This document shows positions 1-25,965 of a stretch of 25,965 nt of DNA, piece by piece. The stretch is from a virus. The notes beneath the pieces were generated by a model, which saw only the letters and a list, made by a program, of their open reading frames with translations, was not told the origin of the DNA and searched no databases. The stretch is taken from positions 1 to 25,965 of IMG/VR virus record IMGVR_UViG_3300031952_000123. One strand, written 5' to 3'. Each line of letters starts with the position of its first letter. The first letter of the stretch is position 1. The position numbers and the translations under genes were made by a program.

Positions 1-505
1 TCCCGCACACGCGGGGGAAGTCCCACACGTCATCGGGAACACGTCCCTCCGCAGAGGCCCGCTTGTCGTGGTACTTGGTCTGCCGGGCGGAGGGCACTCG
101 TACACTGTCTGTGTACCACTCGGTTCCAGGCCGAGAGAAGCGTAGGATGGGACGGTAGCCGTTGCCGAAGTCGCTGTTCCGGTGCTGTCCGAAGGTGAAC
201 CGCCACAGAAATAAACGGACCTGCCACTCTGAGGGGGAATCCGATCTCCAGCATCCGAACCACCTTAGTACATCCGAGAGGTAAATATGGTTTATGCTTA
301 GCCAGAATACCTTTGGATCATGTAACAAAGCTGCTGTGGCTATCCCTTCGAGAAGCCAGTGCAGATAGTCGTTACGCTGATCCGACACACCGCCATCATA
401 GACTACACCCAAGTTGTCGGGGGGATCAGCGAAGATCATCGTGGCTGGAGGTAGAGTGGGGAGTATTTTCAGGAAATCCCCACAGAGAATGGCGTGTTTA
501 CTCAT
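1..505 (-). CDS. DNA (N4-cytosine or N6-adenine) methyltransferase, 3' end cut off by window edge
   Basis: The reading frame stays open from ATG 505 to the left edge, so the C-terminus is missing. Residues 27-30 read DPPD, followed by NLG, in the place of the DPPY/NPPY catalytic motif of S-adenosylmethionine-dependent N4/N6 methyltransferases. The visible end (DDVWDFPRVCG) matches the segment common in phage N6/N4 methylases. It would methylate phage DNA, for protection or regulation. The start is fixed by GGAGG five bases upstream and by an ATGA overlap with the previous gene's stop. The family is fairly sure. The target base and site cannot be read, and the final D in place of Y in the motif is unusual. 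Confidence 0.8.
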   Translation of the reverse strand, partial: MSKHAILCGDFLKILPTLPPATMIFADPPDNLGVVYDGGVSDQRNDYLHWLLEGIATAALLHDPKVFWLSINHIYLSDVLRWFGCWRSDSPSEWQVRLFLWRFTFGQHRNSDFGNGYRPILRFSRPGTEWYTDSVRVPSARQTKYHDKRASAEGRVPDDVWDFPRVCG

Positions 506-699
506 TCGGGCCTCCACGTTGCGTCACGGAGGATGTTATCCTGCTCGATGCTGTCGAGAAGGTCCTCAATGGCGTGATCGGACATGGGTTCATATGCCTC
601 GCAGGCCCTGCTCGTGGACCACTCGTGGTCCCCCGTCAAGCGGCACTTGAGTCCGAATGGGTCGTAGAAGGCGCAATCGCTACAGTGCTTCTCTATCAT
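502..699 (-). CDS. small Cys-rich protein, possible zinc-binding
   Basis: A 65-residue protein beginning MIEKHCSDCAFYDP. A CxxC pair near the N-terminus and two further Cys (KCRL and ACEAYEP) resemble small phage zinc-ribbon-like proteins. The rightward gene at 2068-2307 has a similar Cys pattern (CxxC, LCGYYP, PCYRYE), so the two may be distant paralogues. The C-terminal third is acidic. It lies between the 703-987 gene and the methyltransferase and overlaps the latter by ATGA, so it is probably translationally coupled. Function is unknown. Confidence 0.75.
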   Translation of the reverse strand: MIEKHCSDCAFYDPFGLKCRLTGDHEWSTSRACEAYEPMSDHAIEDLLDSIEQDNILRDATWRPE

Positions 700-702
700 A
701 CG

Positions 703-987
703 TCACCACCCAATTACATCGGAGGGTACGAGAGACTCCACGAAATCCGTTTTGACTTGACGGTGATTTTTCCCATCTACGAGGCCTTGTTCGTAGGCCT
801 GCTTGACCAAGTTTCTTATGGCCTTTCGTAGCTCTTTCTCACAATGAGACCGGAGCAACTGGGCCGTTATTTGAAATCCGGTATCCCAAAGTAAACGAAT
901 TACGGGACGGTAACATGGGGTGTCTGTTTCGATTTCTACGGCGACGGCCGTGTCGGTCTTACCGGCTTTGAACTCAATGTTAAACAT
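703..987 (-). CDS. hypothetical protein, 94 aa
   Basis: Not recognised. The start ATG at 987 has a clear GGAGAAAAC Shine-Dalgarno site, and the gene overlaps the end of its upstream neighbour by a few bases, as expected for coupling. The N-terminal half is beta-like (MFNIEFKAGKTDTAVAVEIE). The middle is basic and helical (CEKELRKAIRNLVKQAYEQG). No signal peptide, membrane segment or catalytic motif is visible. It is the second gene of the leftward unit starting at 1339. Confidence 0.7.
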   Translation of the reverse strand: MFNIEFKAGKTDTAVAVEIETDTPCYRPVIRLLWDTGFQITAQLLRSHCEKELRKAIRNLVKQAYEQGLVDGKNHRQVKTDFVESLVPSDVIGW

Positions 988-1339
988 TGTTTTCTCCTCT
1001 CTCTTCCTTCTGTTGTGGATTCACCAATGGCGACAACTCTCTTAGGGCTTTATCGAAAATCCCACTCGGTATATCGTCCATCTGGAGACGATATCGGAGT
1101 TTCTCCCCCCGGTCGAGAAAAAGGCTTAAGGTGGGAGGAACATGGTTGTTGGTGTGGAAAATGAGATGGTCCCCGAATGTGACGCCATGACGGATGGGGA
1201 CAAAGAAGAAAAACCAATGGCCTTCATCTGTCTTAAATCTGGCACGGACCAGGGTATGGCACCGGCAGGGGTTGTATGCCTCCACCACGATAAGGTGTTT
1301 CCCTTCGGGTGAGTTCTTGGCCGGTCGTTGTTCTTCCAT
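980..1339 (-). CDS. hypothetical protein, first gene of leftward unit, leaderless start
   Basis: About 119 residues starting MEEQRPAKNSPEGKH. Not recognised; there is an aromatic stretch (HWFFFFVPIRHG) and an acidic/basic tail ending KEERGENNV. A longer reading from a TTG at 1381 is possible. I prefer ATG 1339, because the -10 hexamer TACAAT ends exactly 6 bases before it, which would place the transcript start on the A of ATG. The stop overlaps the next gene's start (987), so the unit is coupled. Confidence 0.72.
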   Translation of the reverse strand: MEEQRPAKNSPEGKHLIVVEAYNPCRCHTLVRARFKTDEGHWFFFFVPIRHGVTFGDHLIFHTNNHVPPTLSLFLDRGEKLRYRLQMDDIPSGIFDKALRELSPLVNPQQKEERGENNV

Positions 1340-1345
1340 TCCCCC

Positions 1346-1440: not shown

Positions 1441-1481
1441 AGGGGTATGGGAATCTGGCAACTTGCCATCATACAAGCCTC

Positions 1482-2075: not shown

Positions 2076-2307
2076 TTTCCAATTTGAGAAGGGTCTTAGA
2101 GAGCATCAAGAAGAGATGTCCAAAGAGATACAACGCCAGAGGGAGATACCGGCAGAATGTTCGACATGCTGTTACTCTACGGTGGGGGTTAACCTTTGTG
2201 GGTACTATCCAGGAAATCCGAAACCAATAGAATTGAGAAGGGGGTTTCCGTGCTATAGATACGAGAAGGATGTAATATGGAGGAAGAAAGAAGGCCAACT
2301 TGGCTGA
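2068..2307 (+). CDS. small Cys-rich protein, possible zinc ribbon
   Basis: 79 residues from ATG 2068 (MSDFQFEKGLREHQEE), with a G-rich Shine-Dalgarno upstream. A charged helix comes first, then ECSTCC, LCGYYP and FPCYRYE, giving five Cys in a spaced pattern similar to the 502-699 protein. The start overlaps the end of the primase-like fragment, and its stop overlaps the TTG start of the ATPase, so all four rightward genes are coupled. Function is unknown. Confidence 0.75.
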   Translation: MSDFQFEKGLREHQEEMSKEIQRQREIPAECSTCCYSTVGVNLCGYYPGNPKPIELRRGFPCYRYEKDVIWRKKEGQLG

Positions 2308-3364
2308 GATACAAAAGTCTGCCAACGTAGTGTTCCTAAAGGATGTTAAGTCGGAAACAACTGAGTGGTTGTGGCCCGATAAGATACCCCTGGGGATGTA
2401 CTCCATGCTGGTGGGCGTACAGGGAGGGACGAAATCCTTCTTGTCGCTGTATATGGCGGCGCAGATATCTACGGGGAGACCGTGGGCGGACGGGGAAGGA
2501 AAGAAGCAGACTATTGGGTCCACCATCATACTGTCCACGGAGGATTCGGTCTCGAAGACGATCAAACCACGGTTGCAGGCTGCACAGGCGGACATGGGGA
2601 AGATCGCTGTGATACCCAGTTTCAACATTGGGGATAAGACCAAAGGGCTGTTCAATCTTACGAAAGATTTGGACGTACTATGGGATGCGGTCAAGCAGAT
2701 ACCGGACTTGAGACTCATTATCATTGATCCCATTTCGGCGTACATGGAGGGGAAGGATGAGAACAAGAACTCGGAAGTGAGAGAGTACCTTATGCCCCTG
2801 TCGGTGATGGCAGCGGAGAAGAATATCGCTATCGTGGGTATCAGCCACCTGAACAAAAATGAATCAGCCTCCGCAGAGCACAGGGTTATTGGGTCCACGG
2901 GGATTTCCGCTACGGCGCGAGCTATGTGGTTGATACAGACGGACCAGAAGGATAGAGACCGCAGGAAAATGCTGTTCTTCAAGGGTAATCTGTCCCCTAA
3001 GACCACGGGGCTGGCGTACAGGATTACGTCTGCTCCTATCGTAACGGAGGATGGGAAGACTGGGCAGGTTGGATATTGCCTGTTCGAGAAAGGGATTCTG
3101 TTGGAGACTGCAAAGGAAGAGTTGGCTCCTCCGCAGGGTCAGAATGGGAGGCCGAGGAAGCAAGAAAGCGCAGGGGATTGGCTGTGGAAGTACCTATCGG
3201 ATGGGCCGAAGCCAGCAGCAGATGTATACAGGGATGGAAAAACGGAGGGATATTCGGAGAGAACCCTGCAAAACGTCAAGAAGAAAGATGAGATACAGGC
3301 TGTGAAGAATACCCTACCGGAAGGGGGGGGATACTGGGAATGGTCCCTGCCTACCCTCGATTAG
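2300..3364 (+). CDS. RepA-like AAA_25 replicative ATPase/helicase
   Basis: 354 residues. Start is TTG 2300: in the same frame upstream there is a stop at 2273 and no ATG. Walker A is GVQGGTKS (residues about 39-46). The LSTED segment (79-83) fits the strand after Walker A, and Walker B is LIIIDPIS (139-146). SHLNKN and an Arg-rich segment (TARAMWLI...DRDRRK) follow, as in hexameric RepA/DnaB-type helicases of the RecA fold. The C-terminal 60 residues (GDWLWKYLSDGPK...YSERTLQNVKKK) look like a small winged-helix DNA-binding domain. It probably unwinds DNA at the origin; iteron-like repeats lie immediately downstream. Confidence 0.82.
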   Translation: MAEIQKSANVVFLKDVKSETTEWLWPDKIPLGMYSMLVGVQGGTKSFLSLYMAAQISTGRPWADGEGKKQTIGSTIILSTEDSVSKTIKPRLQAAQADMGKIAVIPSFNIGDKTKGLFNLTKDLDVLWDAVKQIPDLRLIIIDPISAYMEGKDENKNSEVREYLMPLSVMAAEKNIAIVGISHLNKNESASAEHRVIGSTGISATARAMWLIQTDQKDRDRRKMLFFKGNLSPKTTGLAYRITSAPIVTEDGKTGQVGYCLFEKGILLETAKEELAPPQGQNGRPRKQESAGDWLWKYLSDGPKPAADVYRDGKTEGYSERTLQNVKKKDEIQAVKNTLPEGGGYWEWSLPTLD

Positions 3365-3696: not shown

Positions 3697-3959
3697 TTCC
3701 TCCACAGAGAAGAGGCAGACATGGGCATGGATAGGGGAGGGCGCCTACTAATGGTGCGTGCTTGGTCCCAGGGCATGGGCAAAGAGGGCGTCTGGAATAC
3801 GCTACAATGGGCGATCTACCTGTGGAGGGTATGGGAGGGCACACACACTATCGACCCTGCGGAGGGCTGCGATAACGGGCGCGGACTATGGGCAATTGGG
3901 TACTATGGGTCGGACGGGCGGAGGATCAGGCATTGTAGGGCGTGCTCGGCGGGTGGGAC

Positions 3960-4602: not shown

Positions 4603-4630
4603 AGTATAGCATACCCTGCGGAGAATGCAA
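4603..4630 (-). promoter_or_regulatory. extended -10 sigma70-type promoter with CTCCGCAG in the spacer
   Basis: TTGCAT (4630-4625), a 16-base spacer, TATACT (4608-4603), with TGC directly before the -10 (extended -10). The spacer contains one exact CTCCGCAG (4623-4616). It drives genes 4568 to 4033; the transcript would begin near 4596. Confidence 0.75.
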
Positions 4631-7105: not shown

Positions 7106-7281
7106 TATTGTATCTCCAGCGTCCCCACCGTATTCCTATTCGTGTCTTGAAGGAACCACTCCCGCACAAAGGGTTCCTTCAATAACCTCTCCTCCACTCT
7201 GCGGAGGATTCCAGCCAACTCCCATTGTGGATCAAACGCAAACGCCGCGTTGTCCATATTCACTCGAATCACAGCCTCCAT
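7105..7281 (-). CDS. hypothetical protein, 58 aa
   Basis: Starts MEAVIRVNMDNAAFAFDPQWELAGILRRVEERL. ATG 7281 is chosen over the in-frame GTG at 7290 because GAGGAG lies at the right distance. A beta strand followed by a helix with EERLLKEPFVREWF. The pattern looks like a small soluble phage protein; function unknown. Middle of the three-gene unit 7466-6914. One CTGCGGAG motif (7199-7206) falls inside the coding sequence. Confidence 0.75.
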   Translation of the reverse strand: MEAVIRVNMDNAAFAFDPQWELAGILRRVEERLLKEPFVREWFLQDTNRNTVGTLEIQ

Positions 7282-7727: not shown

Positions 7728-7744
7728 CCCTCCGCAGTTCCCAA

Positions 7745-7936
7745 TTACGATCCGGCCCGCCCCCGCCCCGTCTCTATCCCCGCCCTCCTATCCCGTTCCT
7801 TCTTCATCTTCCTGCGGAGGGCTACCACGATCCTCGACGCGTTCCCTAATCCCCACGACGCCATGAGCATATCCCCTATACCCTTAGCCACTTCCTCCGC
7901 CGCCGCACTTGACATCTTCCTCCTGGTAGGTATCAT
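7745..7936 (-). CDS. hypothetical basic protein, 63 aa
   Basis: Starts MIPTRRKMSSAAAEEVAKGIG at ATG 7936, which overlaps the previous stop (ATGA). The internal ATG 7915 has AGGAGG three bases before it and is an alternative start. The helical core is followed by a very basic tail (RRKMKKERDRRAGIETGRGRAGS), suggesting nucleic-acid or membrane-surface binding. Function is unknown. Confidence 0.6.
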   Translation of the reverse strand: MIPTRRKMSSAAAEEVAKGIGDMLMASWGLGNASRIVVALRRKMKKERDRRAGIETGRGRAGS

Positions 7937-8230: not shown

Positions 8231-8283
8231 TGGTGGTCGTTAGACCCCCCCTATTGACCCTGCGGAGGGTATCCATAGCTCAT

Positions 8284-8561: not shown

Positions 8562-9293
8562 TTATCCTTTTTTCGAGGAAAAATTGCTTTTGTGGTAGGG
8601 TTCTCCGCGCCCCATAGGCATCATCACGTGGATCGGTTCCCCGTCCAACACCACCGCCGCCGACAGGATGGGCTTATCATCCATCTCCCTACCGTACACG
8701 AACTGGAAGGCATCCATGTCTATCCCGCACCCTACATCCATCGCAAATACCCGCTCGTCCCAGTTCACACGCCACTTCACCCCGGCCCTACTGTGGCAGT
8801 GGCCCATGACCACGCTCTTGAGCATCTTGCCCGACTTGGTCCATGCCGGGTGAATCCCCCCTGACTTGGAACCATGGCAATAATACACGTTGTCGAATTT
8901 GAAGTGAAAACCCCAGGTCCAGGTAAGAGGCTTGATGCTCTTGTCCTTCTTCTCGTATCCCCACAACGTGTTATAGTTCAGCAAGGCCCGCTCCGGTATT
9001 CCCACGGTCTTAGCCAATCGCTGCGGCCTACAATCGTGGTTCCCGATACACACCATAGCATTAGGGAACGCCTTGTGCCACAGGTGAATCTTCTCACGGG
9101 TCTGTTCATACTCATCACCCGCCCCCGGACACTCAGGTTCCTTAGCGTGAAAACTAATCGCGTGCCAATCCACCACGTCCCCGATGAATACCACCGTATC
9201 ACACTTGTACTTCCTCCGCAGGTCTTGGCAGAACGCCAAGTATCCCGGATGCGTCACCGGCTCATGCAGGTCCCCGATCACCATTACACGCAT
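8562..9293 (-). CDS. calcineurin-like metallophosphoesterase
   Basis: 243 residues. The motifs of the dinuclear-metal phosphoesterase fold appear in order: GDLH (residues 7-10), GDVVDWH (38-44), GNHD (84-87) and GHCHS (164-168). Phage members of this family hydrolyse phosphodiesters or phosphomonoesters (DNA, cyclic nucleotides or RNA ends); the substrate cannot be read. The ATG at 9293 has GGAGGTGGAG upstream and overlaps the previous gene's end. It is last in a unit of nucleotide-related genes (9996-8562). Confidence 0.85.
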   Translation of the reverse strand: MRVMVIGDLHEPVTHPGYLAFCQDLRRKYKCDTVVFIGDVVDWHAISFHAKEPECPGAGDEYEQTREKIHLWHKAFPNAMVCIGNHDCRPQRLAKTVGIPERALLNYNTLWGYEKKDKSIKPLTWTWGFHFKFDNVYYCHGSKSGGIHPAWTKSGKMLKSVVMGHCHSRAGVKWRVNWDERVFAMDVGCGIDMDAFQFVYGREMDDKPILSAAVVLDGEPIHVMMPMGRGEPYHKSNFSSKKG

Positions 9294-9634
9294 GACTCCA
9301 CCTCCAGTTTTCGTTTCAGCGTTTCCAAATCTGCGTATACGGGAATACCCTTCTCCTTGGCCCGCTCAATCTCCCGCGCCGTCCCTGCGGAGGTCTCCCA
9401 CCCGGGAACTAGGAACACTGCATCACATACGTCGAGGAAAGCCTGGCTGTTGTTGAAGTAGTCAGTGTATTCCCAATTCCCGAATACGACCCCCTGGATC
9501 ATATCAATAGCCGGGACGTACACAGCGTACCCCAACTGCCTAACCCGTTCCCCCCATTTTATCATCCGATGTACATTTCTTAAGTACCCACACGCATCAT
9601 CACTGAGTTTCCCCGCAATGTATACTCGTTTCAT
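9284..9634 (-). CDS. DUF4406 / nucleoside 2-deoxyribosyltransferase-like protein
   Basis: 116 residues. The N-terminal VYIAGKLSD, then VPAID, a long middle, CDAVFLVPGWETSAGTAREIERAKEKGIPVY fit the DUF4406 branch of the deoxyribosyltransferase-like fold. Relatives move or cleave the base of deoxynucleosides or nucleotides, which suggests altered dNTP pools. The Shine-Dalgarno of this gene is provided by a copy of the CTGCGGAGG motif (GGAGGATAAGTAATG), and its ATG overlaps the previous TAA. The fold is confident, the reaction is not. Confidence 0.75.
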   Translation of the reverse strand: MKRVYIAGKLSDDACGYLRNVHRMIKWGERVRQLGYAVYVPAIDMIQGVVFGNWEYTDYFNNSQAFLDVCDAVFLVPGWETSAGTAREIERAKEKGIPVYADLETLKRKLEVESCV

Positions 9635-9996
9635 TACTTATCCTCCGCAGATTTGATGATTTCGTGCAGGCACCCCATAGCGTTGAATATAATGGCGCAC
9701 AGGGTATCCTCGGCTATCACTTTACCATGATTGTCAAACTCTTCATAGCCCTGTTGGATCAACCAATAGGCTATCGCGTGACGAATGAGACTATCTAAGT
9801 ACGTCTCAACCGGAATCCCCTTTTTCCAGTTATCAAATTCCCTTCTCGATCCATCTGGCAAGGTCCTGTGCTGATCGAGGTACTGCACGTATCTCCGCAG
9901 CACAATTGGAGAGAGTGCCTTGACGTAGGACAACTTCCCTTGCACCGTATCTCTCGTGGCCCCCCCGCCGAACGTCCTAATCTGTTCATCTGCCAT
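9634..9996 (-). CDS. DUF5664-type dATP/dGTP diphosphohydrolase-like protein
   Basis: 120 residues. The N-terminal TFGGGATRDTVQGKLSY, followed by LSPIVLRRYVQYLDQHR, DNWKKGIPVETYLDSLIRHAIAYW and a final EDTLCAIIFNAMGCLHEIIK, matches the phage family annotated as dATP/dGTP diphosphohydrolase (DUF5664). It would hydrolyse purine dNTPs to monophosphates. It overlaps both neighbours (ATG within the preceding gene's end; TAATG at its own end). The pair with the deoxyribosyltransferase-like gene suggests nucleotide-pool control. Confidence 0.75.
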   Translation of the reverse strand: MADEQIRTFGGGATRDTVQGKLSYVKALSPIVLRRYVQYLDQHRTLPDGSRREFDNWKKGIPVETYLDSLIRHAIAYWLIQQGYEEFDNHGKVIAEDTLCAIIFNAMGCLHEIIKSAEDK

Positions 9997-10426
9997 CTTC
10001 TATTCCTTTCCTACCAAGCATTACATCCCCTGACAACAGGGGAATCTTCACGTAGAAAACGTCCCCATTCCGCATGAATATCCCGGTCGTTTCCACCTTC
10101 CGAGCCTCCGCAGTGGTCGGCCCCAGGATATCCCGGCTTACATAAGCCCGGAATCCCATAGGCATAGGGTAGATCGGTGCCCCCCCCAGCCACGTCACCC
10201 CCTCTCCACCCAGCATTGGGCAGTAAATAGCCATCTTGAGCACCGAGTCACTCTGCGGAGGATGATTGGCCGTTATGACCAGTGCCCCGCAGAACCCCAC
10301 GAATTGCTGCTTGACCAGTATGGGTGCCCCTCGTGGAAATATCCTCTGGCACAGAACGTAGTACCCCCTCGGTTTCCCCTTGACCACATGAGGGCACAAG
10401 CTAACTGGAATACGAATTGGCTCCAT
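9986..10426 (-). CDS. hypothetical protein, 146 aa
   Basis: Not recognised. The start is set at ATG 10426 (MEPIRIPVSLCPHVVKGKPRG), because the longer reading from 10492 would run through the tRNA-like T-arm and read typical tRNA-derived residues. No Shine-Dalgarno is visible, as the gene begins 3 bases after the RNA's 3' end; translation may depend on processing of the RNA. The sequence is beta-rich with many Gly and Pro, as in small capsid or fibre-associated proteins, but no motif supports that. Confidence 0.6.
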   Translation of the reverse strand: MEPIRIPVSLCPHVVKGKPRGYYVLCQRIFPRGAPILVKQQFVGFCGALVITANHPPQSDSVLKMAIYCPMLGGEGVTWLGGAPIYPMPMGFRAYVSRDILGPTTAEARKVETTGIFMRNGDVFYVKIPLLSGDVMLGRKGIEDGR

Positions 10427-14853: not shown

Positions 14854-14861
14854 TGCGGAGG

Positions 14862-14978: not shown

Positions 14979-15143
14979 TCACGATTTCTCAACATTTTTT
15001 TCGTCCTCGTCCAGGACCCATTGAAGTGCCAACGCATAGCATCGTAACTTGATCCGCGTATAGATATCACTGGTCGAATCCGTCTTTGGCATATCGGCAC
15101 GGGTAGCTTCCAATTCTTCCATGATTTCCTTCTCTGGTCTCAT
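14979..15143 (-). CDS. small hypothetical protein, 54 aa
   Basis: Starts MRPEKEIMEELEATRADMPKT at ATG 15143, overlapping the previous TGA. Helical, with a central TSDIYTRIKLRCYALALQWVLDEDEKN. Not recognised. Last gene of the polymerase unit. Its end lies 8 bases before the next promoter. Confidence 0.7.
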   Translation of the reverse strand: MRPEKEIMEELEATRADMPKTDSTSDIYTRIKLRCYALALQWVLDEDEKNVEKS

Positions 15144-15721: not shown

Positions 15722-16263
15722 ACGTCATTCCCCCATACGTCCCATCCTTCTGTTTTCGTTCGTGCAAACAACTCTATTCGAGAAACGTCTCCGCAGAGTT
15801 GAACTATTCTATCTCGAATCTCCGAAGGCTTCTCCGAATGTCTTCCAATTCGAGCGTCACAAACTTGTAGAACACTTCTACTCTTTCTCAACGTCTGGCA
15901 ATGTCCTTTCGTCCCCAACAGACAAATCTCCGAGTTGGCCCTTGTGTAGTTCCCGCACCCTACGAAGTAGGAGTCCGATACCCTATTCCTCTTGATCCAT
16001 GTAAAGGCGCAAGTAGCATACTTGAATCCCCAAGCGTCAATTACCTTTAATCCAGAAGGAAGATTGGGAAACGTCACCCATAAAAACAGAAAACATGTTT
16101 CTTCCGACAAGGAAGGCACTGGTAGCTTCTGTATCCATTCTTCATCCTGTACTTCGTAGTGATTCGCCGGGCATTTCAGCCCACTACCGTTATTCCACCC
16201 CAATCCGTTCCACGGGGGATCAGCATAGATCACAGTGTATTTCCTGTCCGGGAATGGAATCAT
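15718..16263 (-). CDS. MT-A70-family DNA N6-adenine methyltransferase
   Basis: 181 residues. DPPW at residues 15-18 (YADPPWNG) is the catalytic motif of the MT-A70 family. FLFLWVTFPNLPSGLKVIDAWGFKYATCAFTWIK and the C-terminal ARIGRHSEKPSEIRDRIVQLCG-RIELFART follow in the usual order. It would add N6-methyl to adenine in phage or host DNA. The start has AAAGGAAAGAGAC upstream and overlaps the polymerase stop. The target sequence is not readable; CTCCGCAG (with its single A) is one candidate, untested. Confidence 0.85.
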   Translation of the reverse strand: MIPFPDRKYTVIYADPPWNGLGWNNGSGLKCPANHYEVQDEEWIQKLPVPSLSEETCFLFLWVTFPNLPSGLKVIDAWGFKYATCAFTWIKRNRVSDSYFVGCGNYTRANSEICLLGTKGHCQTLRKSRSVLQVCDARIGRHSEKPSEIRDRIVQLCGDVSRIELFARTKTEGWDVWGNDV

Positions 16264-18857
16264 GTCTCTTTCCTTTCATAATCCCACGGCACTGTTCTTC
16301 CCACCCACCTCGAAAACACTTCGAGCAGGGGGGGATGTTTCATACAGTCGCCCATGATCGCGTCCACTCGTTCTCCCTCCGCAGGGTAAGTGTCCACAAA
16401 CAGAGCGTCGTAGATTTGCAGGCATATCACACTGCGGAGGTTTGCTTCCATGAAACGTGCTTGGGCCCGGTACTGGACTGAGTGCAGCAGTTGGGCGCAG
16501 GGGGTCTGGTGGAGGAAGTTGCATATTTCCCCCCCCTTTCCAGCCGTACACCCGACCCCGAACGTCCTGGACCATCCGGTGGGCAGAACAAGATACCCCT
16601 GTCTACCGGCCAAGGCTATCATCTCATCTTGCCACGCCTTGTATACGTGGTGTTTGGCATACCACGTCTTGATCGCCCGATCACAGAACTCAATATCGAC
16701 CTCGATTCCCGCGTCTCTCCGGGCCGTGCTCTGAAAGGCGTCGGCCCCCCCACGGAACAGGACGAGGAAATTGAGCGTCTTCCCCAGTGCGTACTTCACC
16801 GGCTCCCGCTTCTTGAACCCCACCGGGTTCTCGTTGGGGAACAGCGTCAAGGCGGTTCGAGTATGGATGCTCTCCCCTTCTTTCGTATAGGCTTCCATGA
16901 GCAGGGGGTCGCCAGACAGCAACGCTGCCATCCGTAGATGATCTTGGTTCACGTCGTACTCAACGATCTTCCCCCCCGGCCATCGGGAGCACGAGCAATC
17001 ACGTATGCTGTGTGGCTCCGTCTGCCGGGCGGGTTTCTTGCACGAGAACCGTCCCTGAATCTGACCCCCGCTCTTGACATCCGAACTTCCCCCCCGCTCC
17101 GAGTACATAGGAATTGCGTACCACGTCGGATAGACCATCCCCACGTCCCCGGTGTGTGGCATAATCCCCTTCCGAGGATCGATCAGGAGCGGACCCGTGT
17201 AAGTAGAAACGAGTTTGGATCGTTCCTTGTAGTCCTGGAACATCGCAATAAGTTGCTTGTTCTTTCCCTCCGGAATATGTTCCAAGATGAGATTGACGTT
17301 CTCGACCCCTATCGAAATCTTCTTTGTCTTCCCCGTCCACTCCACTCGGCTGTCTTCCAACAACCCTGCTTCTCGCAGGCAGTCGAGTAGGAGTTGTCTC
17401 AGGGGAGCATCTGATCCGGTCCCGCAAAGTTTGATCTCGTGGTCCGTCTCTGCGGAGGTCAAGAGATTTTGGCATCGGATGGTCTCTTCCTCATGGAAAG
17501 CCTGTAGCTTGGCGACGTCAAATGAGCTACCCGTCTCTTCCAGGTAGAACGTATCCCACAGGATCATGTTCCGAGTCCAAGCGCAGGTCTTGCTCAACTT
17601 GGGAGAGTCGGGGCCGTATCGTTCCTTGATCCTCCGCAGGAGTTCCTCGTACAGGACGAGGGTAGCCGCCGCGTCAAGGCAGTTGTAGTAGTGTAAGTCC
17701 TTATCCCACGAGGACTTAGCATTACCAGACTTTCCGGTTACGTTAACTTCGGAATAGTCCGCGATCCCGAATAGCGTAGCCAATTCCTTGAGGCCCTTCT
17801 CCGGCTGCTGCTCATAGAGGAGGAAACTCAACAACAACGTGTCGTCCAGAGTTATTCGTCTTTGGTTAATCAGGAATGGAAGTATTGGGTCTTTTGACAA
17901 GTACAAATACAAGAGATCGAACTTGATATTCTGTCCAACCACCACAACCTTTTGTTCGTTAATCCGGTAAAACCATTCCCGTATCTGCTCTTTGTGATGG
18001 GGTTCAGACCACACATACTGCGCCGTCCTCAGTCTGTCCCCATCCCTCCATCCAAACGCTACGGAGACGATCTGGTCCTCGAACGGAACCCCGTCGATCT
18101 CCTTCGACTTGATCGGGTGGAACACCGTCTGTTCCTTACCCTCCAAGATTCCATAGGTCTCGATGTCCATTGTGACGAACGGGGGTAGAACCTGCGGAGG
18201 ATCAATCCCCACCTCCGGATCAATCTGCAACGCATTGGGGATTAACTCCCCCCGGAGGTAGCGAAGGATCAACGAGAAATGGGTTTCGACGGCGAATATT
18301 TTCCCCGGCTCCCGCAATGGGTGAAGCATAGCAGGATGGAACGTGCAAAACACACGAACCTTACCACCAAATACAGCACTCTTCTGACCCTGCTTCTTGA
18401 GGGCCGCACCCAATGAGGACAGGTGAAGGGCGGAATAGGCTGCCTTAGCTCCCAACGCCACGATAACGACCTCTTCATACATTCCTCCAAGTATAGCTAC
18501 GTCCTCTTGCAAGTACGGGAGGCACGCCCGGATATTGGACTGTGACTCGTCCGCCCCCTGCGGGGGTTTGCACCGGCAGGAATTGACCAAGTACACGTCA
18601 GCGTAGTCCGTCAGTCGCGACGCCCGGACCATCTTCTCCAACAACTGGCCGGTGAATCCAACGAACGACTTCCCTTTCATATCCTCTTGGTGCCCCGGAC
18701 TTTGGCCGGTAAATAAGATTGCTACGTTTTTTTGTAGTGGTTGTCCATCATAGAGACTTCTTGTGGGTAGTCCGGGATTCCTTGCCGATTGGTACAATGG
18801 GCATAGTTTACAATCTGAATGTGATTCAAACGTCAGGCTGCCCACAAATAGCCCCAT
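16260..18857 (-). CDS. family-4 uracil-DNA glycosylase fused to 3'-5' exonuclease and PolA-type DNA polymerase
   Basis: 865 residues. Residues 1-205 form a family-4 UDG domain: iron-sulfur Cys C16, C19, C94/C96 and C112, motif GQSPG (51-55; normally GEAPG, so Glu is Gln) and HPAML (174-178). A DnaQ-type exonuclease follows: DIE (231-233), NIKFD (310-314), YNCLD (391-395). The polymerase has motif A DVNQDHLR (D634), motif B KTLNF (K693, F697) and motif C QIYDALF (D817). Catalytic Asp, Lys and Phe remain, but motif A Glu is His (640), motif B Arg is Tyr (689) and motif C HDE is YDA. This is the main replicative polymerase of the phage. UDG-PolA fusions are known in SPO1-like phages. Confidence 0.88.
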   Translation of the reverse strand: MGLFVGSLTFESHSDCKLCPLYQSARNPGLPTRSLYDGQPLQKNVAILFTGQSPGHQEDMKGKSFVGFTGQLLEKMVRASRLTDYADVYLVNSCRCKPPQGADESQSNIRACLPYLQEDVAILGGMYEEVVIVALGAKAAYSALHLSSLGAALKKQGQKSAVFGGKVRVFCTFHPAMLHPLREPGKIFAVETHFSLILRYLRGELIPNALQIDPEVGIDPPQVLPPFVTMDIETYGILEGKEQTVFHPIKSKEIDGVPFEDQIVSVAFGWRDGDRLRTAQYVWSEPHHKEQIREWFYRINEQKVVVVGQNIKFDLLYLYLSKDPILPFLINQRRITLDDTLLLSFLLYEQQPEKGLKELATLFGIADYSEVNVTGKSGNAKSSWDKDLHYYNCLDAAATLVLYEELLRRIKERYGPDSPKLSKTCAWTRNMILWDTFYLEETGSSFDVAKLQAFHEEETIRCQNLLTSAETDHEIKLCGTGSDAPLRQLLLDCLREAGLLEDSRVEWTGKTKKISIGVENVNLILEHIPEGKNKQLIAMFQDYKERSKLVSTYTGPLLIDPRKGIMPHTGDVGMVYPTWYAIPMYSERGGSSDVKSGGQIQGRFSCKKPARQTEPHSIRDCSCSRWPGGKIVEYDVNQDHLRMAALLSGDPLLMEAYTKEGESIHTRTALTLFPNENPVGFKKREPVKYALGKTLNFLVLFRGGADAFQSTARRDAGIEVDIEFCDRAIKTWYAKHHVYKAWQDEMIALAGRQGYLVLPTGWSRTFGVGCTAGKGGEICNFLHQTPCAQLLHSVQYRAQARFMEANLRSVICLQIYDALFVDTYPAEGERVDAIMGDCMKHPPLLEVFSRWVGRTVPWDYERKET

Positions 18858-19372: not shown

Positions 19373-19401
19373 ATTGTACCCTCTGCGGAGGTTGGATGCA
19401 A
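19373..19401 (-). promoter_or_regulatory. sigma70-type promoter (TTGCAT-17-TACAAT) with CTCCGCAG in the spacer
   Basis: TTGCAT (19401-19396), 17-base spacer, TACAAT (19378-19373), minus strand. The spacer holds one exact CTCCGCAG (19390-19383). The upstream 18 bases AGTAGATTTCTCTTGCAT are identical to those at the promoter 19820-19848. Drives the HNH gene and probably the polymerase unit. Confidence 0.82.
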
Positions 19402-19855: not shown

Positions 19856-22800
19856 CTACTGGAGGGAGGCGTAATATCTCTGCACGGAGTCGGGTCCGCC
19901 CTGTTCGATATCCTCCGTCATCCGTCCCAGCCCCGCCTCTCCGATAACCTGTGAGAATATCGGACGGTAGGCGGTGGGGATTCCCCTCTCGATGCGGGAC
20001 AGTCGGCTGATCTGCTTGCGGTTCTCAATAGCTTTCAGGTCAGACTTCTTGATCTGCAACTCCCCAAGCTCCGGGTACACCTTCTGGAACTCGGCCTTGA
20101 TCTTGTCGGCCTTCTGGGTCTCGTTGTCCGTGATCGCTTGGGTGAAATCCCGTCGGTATCCCCGAATACGATCTCTCTGGGACACCAGCCACTTAGCCGC
20201 GCCAGCCTCCGCAGAGACGGAGGTGGGGCGCAGACCCATAGACCGTAGGGTAAGCTCCATCGGGGAGAGTGTCCCGATCAATGACTTGTTATGGTCATAT
20301 AGGGGCACCCGGCCCTCCGGAGTCGGGTTCGTGTAGTCCGCGTACCGGGGGGAGAGCGTCCGGTAGGCCCGGCTCAGTGCGATCCCACCCGGAACCGCCA
20401 TAGCCGCAGCCCCCGCCAGTTGGGACGTATCCCCCTTCAACAGTCCCATCGCTGTCGTTCCCGCCACCTGTGCAATCGGAGGTACAAATGGGAACGGGTA
20501 GAACGGGGACTTCTCATACTCCGGGATAGGCAATGCCCCCGTCATCAACCCCTTGGATATGTCGACCCCCAGAAGGTCCCGCGCCGTCAGGTATGCCGCC
20601 GCTGATCCAGCCGTAGCCCGTCCGATGAATCCAAAATCGAGCTTGCTGGGGTCCATCCCCATACGTAGCGAGCCATGCAACGCCCCCATCATGCGAAGGG
20701 GGAAGTGCATGAACTGCCTCGCCGCTGGGGACCAATTCATAATGGCCTTGGGTACCCCCAGTGGTCCCCCCGTAAAATTGGATACCATGTTGAGGGTCTG
20801 CCCCACCTCACCCGCTTCCTTGAGGATAGCTGCCCGGCCCTCTGCGGAGGCTTCGGCCAGCTTGGTAGCGTTATGGAATAGGTGGGTATTCTTCCCGGAG
20901 TAGTAGGCCAGCAGTTTATTGTGAGTCTCGGAAGTGGAGAAGGGGAGCATCATCGCATCCTTGACCTTCCCCCACACGGTCTTTGCCCCCACACTCAACG
21001 CGCCCGATTGCTCCGTCTCTATAGCCAATTGGGTGCTGATCGCCTTAGATGCTGTCCCAAGGTCTTCTACGAAGTCGGGGAACGCCGCCTTGAACGCCTC
21101 GTCTCGCCCCACCCCCTTAGACAAGTCTCCAACATATCGGCTCATTCGAGATAGCATCCCCTCTTGACCGGCGAATCCCTTGAGGCCATACCATATACCA
21201 CGCACGCCCACAGAGTTGACGGTTGTGAGGAGGGGTTGTAGTGAATTAGCTGCGGCCGACGATACGTTACCCCCCAAAGTGGATAGGTAGAAGTTACTCG
21301 CTGCGGCACTACTCATGGAATCGAGGGAAGAGAAGAATTTGGAGTCCTTGTAGTAGTTCATCAACCATTTCTTGTTCTCCGGCCCAATCACCGAGTCGAT
21401 CATGGGGTGGCTTCCCAGCCAGTTGTATATCTTCTCCTTGTGTATAGTGGCATTTAAGGATCGTGCCAGTTGCTTGTCAGTCATCACTCCCCGGACGTGA
21501 GGAATAAGCCCGTCTTCCACATAGGATTTGGCCCACGGGTCCTTATCGAACTCCCCTTTACGCTTGACAATAGCCTCAATCTCTTTACCATACCCGGTCC
21601 CATGCCACGCATGGGTATCTGCCACGGTGCTTACGTACCGGCCCAGTGCCTCATGGGGATCGAGGGAATACTGTCCCGGCTCTGCCAGCACCCTACCGAT
21701 GCTTTGGAACTCCTTCTTGATTGCCTCCTGCCCCCCGAACCGTGCCTGTTGGAGAGATAGGGCCATTGCGTCCAAGGTAGACCTAGCCTTTTCTGGTTTA
21801 CCCAACCGAGCCACAAAATTCATATTACTCTTCTCGGAATACTCGGTCATCCTCTGGGCGAACATGGCCCGGTGTGCCCCCTCGTCCGTCCCGATCACCT
21901 TGACCTCGTTCCACACCCTCTCCACTGTACTCGCCGCTTCTCCCGACCACCTATTCAAGACCGCACGAGCCGCCTTATTGTATCCGAGCGGAATCATCCC
22001 GGCCTTTTCCATCTCCAACAGGTTATCCAAGTTGCCCATTGAGTAATCAGGGCGTTCCACATAGGCCCCACTCACCTTTGTATAATCCTCATCATGCACG
22101 TAGTTACGACTCTGTACACCGCTCACTCCTCGGTGGTAGTCATTCTCGTACCTGTTGAATTTTACCGAACGGGGGAAATGGCTATCTATCCTCCCCCCAG
22201 AAACCAACCCCTTCTTCTCAACCGCATCGTGGATACGCTTCTCCGCCTCTGGATTGCTGGTGGCCCACTTCCATACGTCATCTTGCAAGTCCCGCATCTT
22301 ATCGGCTGCTCCTACAACCTCTTTCCGCATCTTGCCTTGAAGTCCCGCTGCAACGGGAACATTCTTTCCCCCCATAAGTGCTATGATTTCCGGCTCATTC
22401 CCAAGCAGCTTCACCATACTGTGGTCTGCGTTTTGTAACCCATCCATCCGTGCCGCCACCGCAAGACGCTCGACCTTGCTCATGGGTCCGGCATCGAGGA
22501 ATATCTTGTTGGCCCTCTCCCAATACTTCAGTTTGAACGCAGCCGTGGCCTCATACACAGAGTTCAACTTCTCGAACAGTCCGGGGTGTGTGCGCAGGTT
22601 CATCATCGCCCCGTGCATCCCGGCGAACAACGAGTCCATCGCAGCGGCCTTGGGCAATAAACCCCTCCGCAGGGCGAGAAGAGGTTCGGTCGTGCCCAGG
22701 GGAAATTTCCAAAGGCCCACGACCAGCCCGGCGATCACGAGGGGGTTGGTGGCTATGTCGGTGATGGTCTTGAGGATTGGGTTTGGGTGCTTGCCGGGCA

Positions 22801-22996
22801 GGAGCGTATCCCGCACCGTCTTGATCTGGGTGGGGGTGAGTGTAGAGGGGGACAGCATCGCTCTGGTAATACCATCAACGTCGCCACGGAGGAGGTTGGC
22901 AAATGCGAGTTGGGGCCTGTCATACCCGGTGATTGGGAAGTCTGCGGAGGCTACCCCATAGGGAGCGTCGTCATCGAGTTCATATTTTTTGCCCAT
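19856..22996 (-). CDS. large internal virion / polyvalent-type protein, 1046 aa
   Basis: Mostly helical Ala/Gly/Lys-rich protein with several hydrophobic or small-residue stretches: about residues 83-97 (NPLVIAGLVVGLW) and, in the last quarter, GRATAGSAAAYLTA, PPIAQVAGTTAMGLL and LAGAAAMAVPGGIAL. The pattern resembles the very large internal or ejected proteins of podovirus-like phages (LPD38-type polyvalent domain), which enter the cell with the DNA and cross the envelope. It is last in a block of virion-like genes. AGGAG precedes ATG 22996 with little space. Assignment is by general resemblance, not by a sharp motif. Confidence 0.6.
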   Translation of the reverse strand: MGKKYELDDDAPYGVASADFPITGYDRPQLAFANLLRGDVDGITRAMLSPSTLTPTQIKTVRDTLLPGKHPNPILKTITDIATNPLVIAGLVVGLWKFPLGTTEPLLALRRGLLPKAAAMDSLFAGMHGAMMNLRTHPGLFEKLNSVYEATAAFKLKYWERANKIFLDAGPMSKVERLAVAARMDGLQNADHSMVKLLGNEPEIIALMGGKNVPVAAGLQGKMRKEVVGAADKMRDLQDDVWKWATSNPEAEKRIHDAVEKKGLVSGGRIDSHFPRSVKFNRYENDYHRGVSGVQSRNYVHDEDYTKVSGAYVERPDYSMGNLDNLLEMEKAGMIPLGYNKAARAVLNRWSGEAASTVERVWNEVKVIGTDEGAHRAMFAQRMTEYSEKSNMNFVARLGKPEKARSTLDAMALSLQQARFGGQEAIKKEFQSIGRVLAEPGQYSLDPHEALGRYVSTVADTHAWHGTGYGKEIEAIVKRKGEFDKDPWAKSYVEDGLIPHVRGVMTDKQLARSLNATIHKEKIYNWLGSHPMIDSVIGPENKKWLMNYYKDSKFFSSLDSMSSAAASNFYLSTLGGNVSSAAANSLQPLLTTVNSVGVRGIWYGLKGFAGQEGMLSRMSRYVGDLSKGVGRDEAFKAAFPDFVEDLGTASKAISTQLAIETEQSGALSVGAKTVWGKVKDAMMLPFSTSETHNKLLAYYSGKNTHLFHNATKLAEASAEGRAAILKEAGEVGQTLNMVSNFTGGPLGVPKAIMNWSPAARQFMHFPLRMMGALHGSLRMGMDPSKLDFGFIGRATAGSAAAYLTARDLLGVDISKGLMTGALPIPEYEKSPFYPFPFVPPIAQVAGTTAMGLLKGDTSQLAGAAAMAVPGGIALSRAYRTLSPRYADYTNPTPEGRVPLYDHNKSLIGTLSPMELTLRSMGLRPTSVSAEAGAAKWLVSQRDRIRGYRRDFTQAITDNETQKADKIKAEFQKVYPELGELQIKKSDLKAIENRKQISRLSRIERGIPTAYRPIFSQVIGEAGLGRMTEDIEQGGPDSVQRYYASLQ

Positions 22997-23431: not shown

Positions 23432-23970
23432 TACAGATTACTCCTCAAGATTCCCGTGATCCCCCCGCCAGCAGCCGGTTGGCTCCCCGCCATCCCAGGT
23501 GTTCCCGCCATCCCCTGCGCGGCCTGGAGTAGCATGGCCACTTGATTCTGCTGTCCAGATAGGAACATCTCCATCATCCTATCCTCCTGTGCTCGACGGA
23601 GATCCTCTTTCCGTATCTCTCTCGTCTCCTTTAAGGACTTCTCCGTGCCCGCTCTGGATTCTTGCACCAGCAACTTGGTAGCCTCCGCAGACATCCCGGC
23701 GAGTTTCTCCTGCAATGCAAGTTCCGCGCGGGAGATATTCCGTTGTCCTGCTGCTCCGAACTGCCCAAGAATCTCATTCCCAAAGTAGGCCCCACCGGCC
23801 AAAGCAGCAAGACCACCAGGAGTCGATGCAGCTTCTTCCGCCTTCCCCCATCCTGCCTTGGCCAGTCCGGGCGTGGCCTTACCCGCGGCCTTAGCCCCTC
23901 TACCCAACATCTTTAATCCACCGGGGACCATCGCAAGAAGAGACAACAGCTTGAGCAATGCAGCAGGCAT
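23431..23970 (-). CDS. hypothetical virion-associated protein with hydrophobic N-terminus, 179 aa
   Basis: Starts MPAALLKLLSLLAMVPGGLKML, a hydrophobic N-terminal helix. Gly/Ala-rich segments (GGLAALAGGAYFGNEILGQFG) and a long charged helix (SLKETREIRKEDLRRAQEDRMMEMF) follow, ending in a Gly/Pro/Ala-rich tail. Together with its neighbours it resembles podovirus internal core proteins able to contact membranes. Function is inferred from context only. Confidence 0.65.
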   Translation of the reverse strand: MPAALLKLLSLLAMVPGGLKMLGRGAKAAGKATPGLAKAGWGKAEEAASTPGGLAALAGGAYFGNEILGQFGAAGQRNISRAELALQEKLAGMSAEATKLLVQESRAGTEKSLKETREIRKEDLRRAQEDRMMEMFLSGQQNQVAMLLQAAQGMAGTPGMAGSQPAAGGGITGILRSNL

Positions 23971-23972
23971 AG

Positions 23973-25340
23973 TTACAGTCCTTCAATACCACGAGTATCC
24001 AATTGATCCAACGTCAGTTTCCTCGCGGGAACCACAGGTGTTATTGACCCTGCGGAGGGAAACACGGATAGCTTCATCTTGTTGAGAAAATCATACGCTT
24101 CAACATCCTCTGGAGTAGCATTGGGGGGGTAGGCATACGGGTCACTATATTCCATCTTCTTCCTTAGTCCTTCTTTGACAGAAGCCGTTGCTTTTCTCAT
24201 ATCACCCATAAGGACTTTACGCAACGCTATTTCCGAACTTACGGTAGACCCGCTGATTGACCCTGTAGCTTCACGTATAACATGGGCCACCGTCTTACCA
24301 GTTTGGTCCCCTGCAATCTTCGTCCCTGTTTCACCACCCAATCCCATCAACGTTGACCTCCGCAGACCCAACCTTACCTTCTCTCTCCCCCACGCTTTCT
24401 TGTCGCTCTCCGTTGAGGATTCCTTGATCTTCTCATCTACCGCCAACATCCCACCATCCAGACCAGCGATAGCCTTCCGAACATCCATATAGTCAATCTC
24501 TCCCCGTGCAATCCCGTCCTTGATCTTATGGGCATCGGAACTACTCAATGCGGTGATATCCACCTTGGACCCATTAGCAGTCACTCTCTCCTGAACCGCC
24601 CCAAGAATAGAACGCGTACCCCCGACAGTGATCGTCTCAGGCACATAACGAGTGGCAGGTCCGGCTTGGGTTCGTTCCGTTACAGCGTTTCGTACCTCCA
24701 TAGGGATAGTTAGATCAAATCCCTTATTCTGCAGAATAGAATTTTTGGATAATTCTATTTGACCATCATGCACTATTTTGTCCTGTTCGGCCTTCTCCGC
24801 ACTGGACGTCAATCCATCATCATACGTCGCCATAGCAGATTCTTGCATTTGGGAAAGATCGACGGCACTGAGCATTACTTTGGCGGATTCTCTGGCCGAA
24901 GCCAATGCAGCCGCCCCCCTTGCTCCCTCCAAAGCCATCAGCCGCCTATACGCCTTCTCCGCCCTCGCATCGTCGTGGCCTTGGTCGGCCAATTCCGCCT
25001 CGCGTAGAAGCTCGCTCTGCTTGGCCAAGAACCCCTGATTCTGGGTCTGGAGCATCTCCGTATGTTTCCGATCCTCCCCCTTGGACGCAATCTCCGCAGC
25101 CATTTCCTTATCCCGCATCGCCAAATCCGCCGCCTGCTTCTGTATCGCCTGCTGACCGGCCATCGCCTGTTGCTTCTCTGCGGAGGCGGTCTGCATCCCG
25201 GCCCGTTGCGTCTCACCCTGTTGCTGCATGGCCGTAATCAACCGATTGCTCGATTGCTGCTGGCCCTGTTGCAAGGATTGCGACACATAAGGATCAAGTT
25301 GTCCCCCCGTCACGTTTGGGGCATCCGGTGCTCTTGCCAT
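23973..25340 (-). CDS. Gln/Ala-rich coiled-coil virion protein, 455 aa
   Basis: The first 190 residues are Gln/Ala/Lys-rich helix (GQQQSSNRLITAMQQQGETQRAG, then AMRDKEMAAEIASKGEDRKHTEM), a predicted coiled coil. The centre holds a more mixed domain (FDLTIPMEVRNAVTERTQAGPATRYVPETI). The C-terminus has YSDPYAYPPNATPEDVEAYDFL. ATG 25340 has AGGAACATAG upstream. The composition fits internal virion proteins of short-tailed phages. Overlaps nothing but lies 2-3 bases from both neighbours. Confidence 0.65.
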   Translation of the reverse strand: MARAPDAPNVTGGQLDPYVSQSLQQGQQQSSNRLITAMQQQGETQRAGMQTASAEKQQAMAGQQAIQKQAADLAMRDKEMAAEIASKGEDRKHTEMLQTQNQGFLAKQSELLREAELADQGHDDARAEKAYRRLMALEGARGAAALASARESAKVMLSAVDLSQMQESAMATYDDGLTSSAEKAEQDKIVHDGQIELSKNSILQNKGFDLTIPMEVRNAVTERTQAGPATRYVPETITVGGTRSILGAVQERVTANGSKVDITALSSSDAHKIKDGIARGEIDYMDVRKAIAGLDGGMLAVDEKIKESSTESDKKAWGREKVRLGLRRSTLMGLGGETGTKIAGDQTGKTVAHVIREATGSISGSTVSSEIALRKVLMGDMRKATASVKEGLRKKMEYSDPYAYPPNATPEDVEAYDFLNKMKLSVFPSAGSITPVVPARKLTLDQLDTRGIEGL

Positions 25341-25341
25341 A

Positions 25342-25965
25342 CTATGTTCCTATAGATTGTCTTGGACCCCACTCCCCCGTAGTCAGGTTAGTTGTTCTAT
25401 GGTAGGGGACGAAATTTGCTTTCGTATACGCTTGATTTTCTTCCTCCGCAGTGCGTTCGATCTGGGCAATGGCCACGAGCGTGGGGGTGATATCCATAGT
25501 GAACGTCGGACTCTGGACAATCCAGTTGGCGAGGTTCTCCATCCCGCTCATCTTCATCTGCTCCAGGGTAGCCTCCAACTGCGCCCCCTGCAACGCATAC
25601 TGCTGACGGTTGGACTCTTGATACTTGAGCATCTCGACGTGTTGCTGCTCCTGGTAGCCAACGTACATGTTCGATTTGGTGTAGGCGTCGGAGGTTATAG
25701 CGAGATAGTTCTCCTGCTGCTGTGCCCGAATCTTGGAGAAATTCGATTGGATGTTGCTTTGCACCGTGGCCAGTGTCGTCTTCTTGCTGGCTTGGAACTG
25801 CTGGTACTCCTTGCTGTCCGTCCCATAGTTCTGAGAGATGTTCCTTTCCTCGTCCTTCATCGACCCCATCACCGCCTGAACCCCCGCCTGCATCTCGTGG
25901 GCCTTGGCGAAATCGTTGTCCTGGGCGATACTGGTATTGATCGCATCGAACTTCTTCAATACCAG
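25342..25965 (-). CDS. virion-associated helical protein, 5' end cut off by window edge
   Basis: The frame is open to the right edge, so the N-terminus is missing; the first visible possible start (TTG 25959) has no support. About 207 residues are seen: helical and Gln-rich (IRAQQQENYLAITSDAYTKSN, then YQEQQHVEMLKYQESNRQQYALQGAQLEATLEQMKMSG), ending RTTNLTTGEWGPRQSIGT. Similar in character to the 455-residue neighbour. Probably an internal virion protein. Confidence 0.65.
   Translation of the reverse strand: MVLKKFDAINTSIAQDNDFAKAHEMQAGVQAVMGSMKDEERNISQNYGTDSKEYQQFQASKKTTLATVQSNIQSNFSKIRAQQQENYLAITSDAYTKSNMYVGYQEQQHVEMLKYQESNRQQYALQGAQLEATLEQMKMSGMENLANWIVQSPTFTMDITPTLVAIAQIERTAEEENQAYTKANFVPYHRTTNLTTGEWGPRQSIGT

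Follow-up and report, generated by a model that had tools for sequence, protein, structure and literature searches.

An oriented nine-letter DNA word dispersed through the genomes of an uncultured tailed-phage clade, and its possible Chi-like role

Chi is AGCGG in Bacillus subtilis and GAAGCGG in Staphylococcus aureus. Lambdoid phages of the recombinase-positive, inhibitor-negative (Rec+Inh-) class over-represent Chi, according to section 7 of PMC3784561. The DNA of phage tf is nicked in 14 places, at a strict 9-mer of which one-mismatch copies are few; its relatives have similar nick positions and a different main site, and T5 has five major nicks, those of tf and T5 lying on one strand (in the passages of PMC3517423 that describe them). 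The stoperators of mycobacteriophages are predominantly in one orientation relative to transcription, as PMC6550527 presents them. Here we describe a short word, the octamer CTCCGCAG with its nine-letter form CCTCCGCAG, which is iterated through a 25,965-base virus record (IMG/VR record IMGVR_UViG_3300031952_000123, the whole of which is called the window below) and through the genomes of related phages.

The word shares traits with each of these systems, as far as the cited passages describe them. Like Chi, it is short, strict, G-rich on one strand (5'-CTGCGGAGG-3') and scattered through genes, with dialects that differ at the 3' end, and the Rec+Inh- lambdoids offer a phage precedent for Chi enrichment (PMC3784561). 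Unlike Chi, it is new in sequence, denser, balanced and alternating between strands, and found in close convergent pairs. Like the interruptions of tf, T5 and phiKMV, it is a strict iterated word with few near-variants and a consensus that varies between relatives, whereas the sites here lie equally on both strands, with 24 to 61 octamers per large genome. Like the stoperators of mycobacteriophage cluster A, which co-diverge with their reader, it is asymmetric and genome-dispersed; stoperators, in contrast, are 13 bp long and mostly in one orientation. Like the DNA uptake sequences of Haemophilus and Neisseria, it has a 9-mer core and very many strict copies on both strands. Those sequences are chromosomal, and the passages of PMC1939737 on them report neither alternation nor same-strand regularity, whereas the present word is found in phages.

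An earlier note on this DNA, made from its letters alone, had counted 38 copies of CTCCGCAG, and our recount gave the same number (20 on the plus and 18 on the minus strand). It is the commonest 8-mer of the window, with Markov expectations of 0.83 (order-2), 1.6 (order-3) and 4.5 (order-4), so that the enrichment far over random claimed in that note holds. The nine-letter form CCTCCGCAG is found at 34 of the 38 sites and CCTCCGCAG[AG] at 30. A longer form, TTGACCCTGCGGAGG, does recur three times as had been noted, at 8256, 13411 and 24046. The sites of the window are the following, convergent neighbours being given as halves of a pair.

47..54 (+): CTCCGCAG site
2869..2876 (+): CTCCGCAG site, inside the helicase gene
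3129..3136 (+): CTCCGCAG site, inside the helicase gene
3857..3864 (-): CTCCGCAG site
4616..4623 (-): CTCCGCAG site
7199..7206 (-): CTCCGCAG site
7730..7737 (+): CTCCGCAG site, left half of a convergent pair (82 bp) with 7812
7812..7819 (-): CTCCGCAG site, right half of the 82-bp pair with 7730
8260..8267 (-): CTCCGCAG site in TTGACCCTGCGGAGG context
9214..9221 (+): CTCCGCAG site, left half of a convergent pair (171 bp) with 9385
9385..9392 (-): CTCCGCAG site, right half of the 171-bp pair with 9214
9643..9650 (+): CTCCGCAG site
9893..9900 (+): CTCCGCAG site
10106..10113 (+): CTCCGCAG site, left half of a convergent pair (147 bp) with 10253
10253..10260 (-): CTCCGCAG site, right half of the 147-bp pair with 10106
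12131..12138 (+): CTCCGCAG site
12475..12482 (+): CTCCGCAG site, left half of a convergent pair (47 bp) with 12522
12522..12529 (-): CTCCGCAG site, right half of the 47-bp pair with 12475
13415..13422 (-): CTCCGCAG site in TTGACCCTGCGGAGG context
14363..14370 (+): CTCCGCAG site
14853..14860 (-): CTCCGCAG site
15789..15796 (+): CTCCGCAG site
16377..16384 (+): CTCCGCAG site in polA, left half of a conserved convergent pair with 16432
16432..16439 (-): CTCCGCAG site in polA, right half of the conserved pair with 16377
17450..17457 (-): CTCCGCAG site in polA
17632..17639 (+): CTCCGCAG site in polA
18192..18199 (-): CTCCGCAG site in polA
19383..19390 (-): CTCCGCAG site
20207..20214 (+): CTCCGCAG site in the 1046-aa gene
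20842..20849 (-): CTCCGCAG site in the 1046-aa gene
22665..22672 (+): CTCCGCAG site in the 1046-aa gene
22942..22949 (-): CTCCGCAG site in the 1046-aa gene
23683..23690 (+): CTCCGCAG site in the 179-aa gene
24050..24057 (-): CTCCGCAG site in TTGACCCTGCGGAGG context
24358..24365 (+): CTCCGCAG site
25092..25099 (+): CTCCGCAG site, left half of a convergent pair (86 bp) with 25178
25178..25185 (-): CTCCGCAG site, right half of the 86-bp pair with 25092
25444..25451 (+): CTCCGCAG site

The window is about half of a circular-mapping tailed-phage genome of about 52 kb. A second record, G001 (IMGVR_UViG_3300031746_000052, 42,744 bases), overlaps window positions 1-4354 at 100% and 13,651-25,963 at 99.95% identity, and together the two close into a circle of 52,040 bases; G007 is a further copy of the same phage (99.97% over 14,840 bases). 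This joined genome contains 61 CTCCGCAG octamers, 30 in one orientation and 31 in the other. The word is strict, with 56 perfect copies of CCTCCGCAG and at most 6 of any one-mismatch variant. Its strict core is CCTCCGCA[G>A], and the consensus of 628 sites from 31 contigs, in which the inner bases were fixed by the search pattern, reads C(89%) C T C C G C A G(88%)/A(12%), mostly followed by purines. Gaps between all sites of the joined genome fit an exponential distribution (Kolmogorov-Smirnov p = 0.96). The three motif-free stretches described in the earlier note do exist, and are therefore ordinary gaps; the suggestion that they mark segments is not supported by this spacing.

Relatives were gathered by searches with an unknown 455-aa protein, the polymerase, Sak4, the presumed capsid, an 877-aa tail-like protein and the terminase. 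Among 47 loci carrying the terminase large subunit (TerL), 42 (some of them near-identical) reach at least 52% identity and form an uncultured clade. Looking for the octamer in the rest of the genome and in relatives, as had been proposed, thus gave the 61 copies of the joined circle and at least one copy in 41 of the 42 clade loci. In 33 of the 42, the most over-represented octamer is CTCCGCAG or CCTCCGCA, which is shifted by one base. Nine loci depart from this, namely eight fragments no longer than 6.5 kb and L062 (G012), discussed below. The five distant terminase loci (23-28% identity) have zero or one copy each. Density is one site per 0.7-2.5 kb, the range of 24 to 61 octamers being that of eight large genomes with this dialect. 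Because the G+C content of the clade ranges from 38% to 56%, base composition is not the cause of the enrichment. Among 5.39 million open-licence papers, no phage paper was found to contain the words as whole words; CTCCGCAG appears in one Myxococcus paper. The word is real, conserved and, as far as searched, undescribed.

We then compared the observed sites with synonymous-codon shuffles of the core genes of nine genomes, G012 being scored with its own dialect word. Depending on the genome, the shuffled genes averaged 0.75 to 2.8 sites and the real ones contain 19 to 34, an enrichment of about 12- to 31-fold. For the 22 core genes of the joined genome, 34 sites were observed versus 2.8 +/- 1.7, so that codon or protein demand is ruled out as the cause, in agreement with the earlier argument that amino-acid demand does not explain the copies. 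Neither of the two outcomes that the earlier note had named as refuting the observation, a loss of enrichment under a codon-aware model or absence from the remaining genome and from relatives, was thus obtained. Distant members of the clade are only 23-33% identical at fourfold-degenerate bases, close to random, and 7 of the 34 core-gene sites of the window phage are found at the identical codon and in the same orientation in G002. The polA pair at 16377/16432 has equal spacing in G002, with diverged intervening DNA. Where the amino acids of two phages are identical, 296 of 359 sites are kept (82%), versus 11,020 of 109,450 control 9-mers (10%), in a comparison over all ordered pairs of eight genomes, which are not independent. 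The DNA words themselves are thus under strong purifying selection. Many other sites have been gained and lost, 92 of 135 site columns being present in a single genome only.

The orientation of neighbouring sites follows a rule. In the first six contigs, '+-' neighbours (CCTCCGCAG followed by CTGCGGAGG) are close and '-+' neighbours are far apart (permutation p = 5e-5). A second set, of 25 additional contigs, served as a test: of 429 adjacent pairs, 280 alternate in orientation versus 223 +/- 10 expected (0 of 5000 permutations), with median gaps of 432 bp for '+-' and 946 bp for '-+'. When the 31 contigs are pooled (630 sites), pairs closer than 500 bp comprise 136 '+-', 64 '-+', 29 '++' and 43 '--', and the orientation classes are about equal at 1500 to 4000 bp. 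Near-identical contigs were left out of the second set, of the pooled pairs and of the pooled consensus and phasing counts, together with the short loci L043 and L052, which were not shown to be duplicates, and G012, because of its other dialect. The gap difference between '+-' and '-+' is small in G006, G013 and G014. Positions in the second set are partly common by descent (for example 18 of 25 between G009 and G014), so that the permutation p-values overstate independence and are optimistic. This orientation rule is new relative to the earlier note and to the passages on known systems cited above.

A rival reading is a DNA-organising or looping protein, encoded by phage or host, that would bind the asymmetric 9-mer and prefer facing sites within about 500 bp. 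We consider such a protein unlikely, although it deserves serious attention: '+-' pairs make up 136 of the 272 close pairs, compared with 64 '-+' and 72 same-orientation pairs, and both permutation results above count in its favour. Helical phasing of the shortest pairs was hinted at in the first set (R = 0.59, p = 0.019) and in the pool (R = 0.37 at 10.25 bp, nominal p = 0.005 for a period chosen afterwards), but is weak in the second set alone (R 0.24-0.36); phasing was set aside and lends no support to the Chi-like reading proposed below. Total spacing that is near random in most genomes, with regular same-strand spacing, also argues against looping. A predicted winged-helix-like protein of 166 aa is present in eight of the nine large genomes, a further point for such a protein, but was not found in G011, which has the normal word, and it was rejected as a universal reader. 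Its gene (L002:4597-5094 and orthologues) lies upstream of the terminase and is well conserved, although diverged in G012; its structural model (mean predicted local distance difference test score 79) had no Foldseek match at E <= 0.001.

Sites of the same orientation are spaced regularly. Treating contigs as circles (overlapping ends were present only in the joined genome, G009 and G010), we obtained coefficients of variation of 0.46-0.95 for same-orientation gaps, versus 0.92-0.96 under the null; 13 of 18 strand sets from nine genomes gave p < 0.05, with a combined z of -6.9. Both orientations pooled are near random in most genomes, a combination that fits a reader to which only one of the two orientations is visible at once. 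On one strand, sites are on average about 1.6-3.3 kb apart, and both orientations are present in every eighth of the nine genomes, except one orientation in one eighth of G012. Regular spacing on this scale is compatible with priming, in which the words would be single-strand initiation (ssi) signals, one per Okazaki-sized stretch on each strand. Plasmid ssi sites also occur as inverted pairs, and the window helicase matches the helicase parts of primase-helicase families, with no primase domain named in it. Since the helicase type varies in the clade (AAA_25 or D5-like) while the word is unchanged, and no 9-mer-recognising priming protein was found, we regard priming as improbable.

Relative to the core genes, which give the direction of eight genomes, 176 sites are sense and 193 antisense, and 42 of the 44 genes called in the joined genome share one direction. 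Equal use of both strands in nearly one-directional genomes disfavours the stoperator role that the earlier note had listed, and makes roles in transcription hard to fit. Inverted pairs would account for the strand balance if CCUCCGCAG and CUGCGGAGG of one transcript formed message-regulating hairpins. Tight pairs 21-25 bp apart exist in six phages, the CCTCCGCAA variant is commoner in the G-U-capable sense (28 versus 11), and the base-3 variant shows a slight excess in that sense too (19 versus 15). The base-1 C-to-T variant, however, leans to the wrong sense (6 versus 13), the next inner and outer bases are complementary in 5 of 20 tight pairs each, which is chance and gives no stem extension, and most sites have no near partner. 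Such hairpins are accordingly very improbable.

One lineage has switched its word as a set. G012 (52 kb) contains no CCTCCGCAG, a single CTCCGCAG and 29 copies of GCCCCGCAG with almost no variants. In the midpoint-rooted terminase tree it groups as sister (support 1.0) with G011, a genome with 30 CCTCCGCAG, and the two have no core-gene site positions in common. On the G-rich strand CTGCGGAGG has become CTGCGGGGC, a change of two of the last three bases. The change appears similar to the difference between the Chi sequences of E. coli (GCTGGTGG) and P. syringae (GCTGGCGC), which lies only within the last three bases in the passage of PMC5959072 that gives them; this is a resemblance and not a test.

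We also scanned IMG/VR, without recourse to homology, for places where two opposed words lie 11-40 bases from each other, and obtained 52 stretches. Clear enrichment beyond the finding pair was seen in clade members and in two further contigs, L140 (6 octamers in 6.4 kb) and L145 (7 in 6.9 kb). Leaving the finding pair aside, 4 octamers remain in L140 (P = 2e-4) and 5 in L145 (P = 7e-6), both P values being uncorrected for the 52 stretches. Their relative L127 has 3 octamers, not significant alone, and a few other stretches have 3-5 sites in 8-15 kb, where enrichment is not clear. As L140, L145 and L127 are related to each other, they count as one case and not three. L145 encodes a gpE-type major capsid protein (1073-2083) and head-tail genes. 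Compared by blastp with the open reading frames (ORFs) of 32 clade contigs, the three gave no match at 1e-6, nor is the capsid of L145 similar to the presumed capsid of the clade (hhalign probability 0.1%). Both groups nevertheless share rare variants of the word, CCCCCGCAG in L140, L145 and L127 and TCTCCGCAG in L140 and L145. A word occurring with its rare variants in a phage without detected relation favours a host-encoded reader, and these sequences are the best reason to suppose one.

Host tags of the uptake type, or other marks of 'self', such as the DNA uptake sequences (DUS) and uptake signal sequences (USS) of Neisseria and Haemophilus, are alike in length, strictness, copy number, use of both strands and a minority of inverted repeats, as described in the relevant passages of PMC1939737. 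There is no obvious gain to a phage from uptake, and a tag working in either orientation should need no regularity within each orientation; we give this explanation hardly any chance.

Several genes of the window are listed here.

16260..18857 (-): DNA polymerase A with an N-terminal uracil-DNA-glycosylase domain, core gene
15140..15721 (-): core gene for an ERCC4-type nuclease (PHROG match E 1.3e-5, Pfam match under its cut-off)
13078..14130 (-): core gene for a PDDEXK_1 nuclease
11226..12122 (-): core gene for a Sak4-like recombinase
10756..11211 (-): gene with weak similarity to single-strand-DNA-binding proteins (E = 0.014)
15718..16263 (-): MT-A70 methyltransferase, patchy across the clade
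2300..3364 (+): AAA_25 (RepA/DnaB-like) helicase, on the strand opposite to most genes

The joined genome encodes the tailed-phage terminase large subunit with DNA polymerase A, Sak4, and the PDDEXK and ERCC4-type nucleases; its portal gave a weak match only, and the 528-aa protein is presumed to be the capsid by position only, with no PHROG or Pfam family match. Neither portal nor presumed capsid matched any of 50,697 phage records (INPHARED). The terminase reached 22% identity at best, in 11 Paenibacillus larvae phage records, and had one distant match (29%) among cellular genomes. Helicases are swapped non-orthologously, AAA_25 in the window phage (2300-3364) being replaced by a D5-like helicase in G002 (L008:2960-4342). 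A trypsin-like peptidase gene (L002:16908-17735) lies downstream of the terminase and portal genes. In the window, a tRNA is called by Rfam at 8114-8195 (-) and by ARAGORN a tRNA-Pro(agg) at 10536-10619 (-), and ARAGORN found no tRNA in eight other large clade genomes. Other repeats among the top 12-mers of the window, GCCAAGGC (18 copies) and ACGCCGCCTACGCCG-like 12-mers (8 copies), may represent a repetitive protein-coding stretch.

DNA methyltransferase genes are patchy in the clade (window 15718-16263 and L002:3838-4581). A homologue of the MT-A70 gene was found in one of ten relatives holding the neighbouring polymerase gene (G012) and in 2 of the 19 compared in all, and for the phrog_67-type methylase ORF the corresponding count is at most 1 of 19. 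Such patchiness where the word is enriched speaks against the phage's own methylases as the reason for the sites, a methylase target being among the roles listed in the earlier note.

The ERCC4-type nuclease, among the well conserved core genes, could fit an enzyme that nicks one strand at each site and so cuts both strands in turn. Virion DNA would then be a patchwork of overlapping single strands, with '+-' units as long cohesive ends; both parts of this proposal seem quite unlikely to us. The word of phage tf is similarly a strict, co-evolving 9-mer, but the nicks of tf, T5 and phiKMV are on one strand (both points as given in passages of PMC3517423), compared with 30 and 31 sites by orientation here, and a phage-encoded nickase alone does not explain the unrelated phage. 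Contig ends gave no clear sign of breaks at sites, 6 of 90 ends (duplicates included) falling within 50 bases of one (3.8 expected) and 3 within 20 bases (1.5 expected). Edges of recent recombination were uninformative, the 20 short high-identity segments including several from one locus and being biased by conservation.

Our tentative proposal, to which we give somewhat less than even chances, is that the word may be a Chi-like directional site read by a RecBCD/AddAB-class helicase-nuclease of the host. A reader that sees one orientation and profits from regular placement on each strand is best matched by a Chi-reading end-processing enzyme. An enzyme entering a broken or linear phage molecule from either side would meet a correctly oriented stop within a few kb, where degradation would end and a recombination-ready 3' tail would be made. 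In a '+-' unit, the left-read site would lie just left of the right-read site, so that the resected tails would overlap by tens to hundreds of bases and could be joined by the phage's own Sak4-type recombinase. The phage would thus carry the host's 'do not destroy, recombine' mark. The Sak4-like gene makes these phages recombinase-positive, and the PHROG matches obtained for a subset of their proteins included none named as a RecBCD inhibitor. Of the roles suggested in the earlier note, the Chi-like one is the best and has gained support, although not proof. We class the word as one that works like Chi, not as a Chi. Whether or not the word is a Chi, a sharp prediction follows: recognition by the reader should be of CTGCGGAGG in most members of the clade and of CTGCGGGGC in a single lineage.

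Several observations weigh against this proposal. The 12- to 31-fold enrichment is far above the observed-to-expected ratios of 2.5-3.1 given for lambdoid Chi in the part of PMC3784561 cited, though the two were measured differently. In 398 Bacillota genomes CTGCGGAGG reaches at most about one copy per 31 kb; the clearest excess over a reversed-word control, 67 versus 6 in the 2.7-Mb genome G339, is far under Chi density. Close '+-' pairing is not predicted by simple Chi theory, the overlap idea being our own inference. The window phage is itself the weakest case of same-strand regularity, which is not significant there (p = 0.53 and 0.13). Finally, the case for a host reader comes from one unrelated phage in three short contigs, and a common phage-encoded module is possible.

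It is also conceivable, although we lean against it, that the sites form an orientation-coded, genome-wide address system whose reader acts on opposed site pairs, unlike the described Chi, nick, stoperator and uptake systems. With the same reserve, its elements would be an asymmetric 9-mer at regular per-strand intervals, alternating in orientation and paired convergently, with heritable dialects, maintained in a family and common to it and an unrelated phage; and its reader might, again doubtfully, act by making cohesive ends, by overlap-guided joining or by looping.

If the word is not a Chi, it is a dispersed DNA signal of which we found no description. If it is a true Chi, it would be the signal for recombination in the host group and provide a sequence by which the host could be traced, and it would come with dozens of phage contigs from which the rules of placement, including the orientation rule, can be read.

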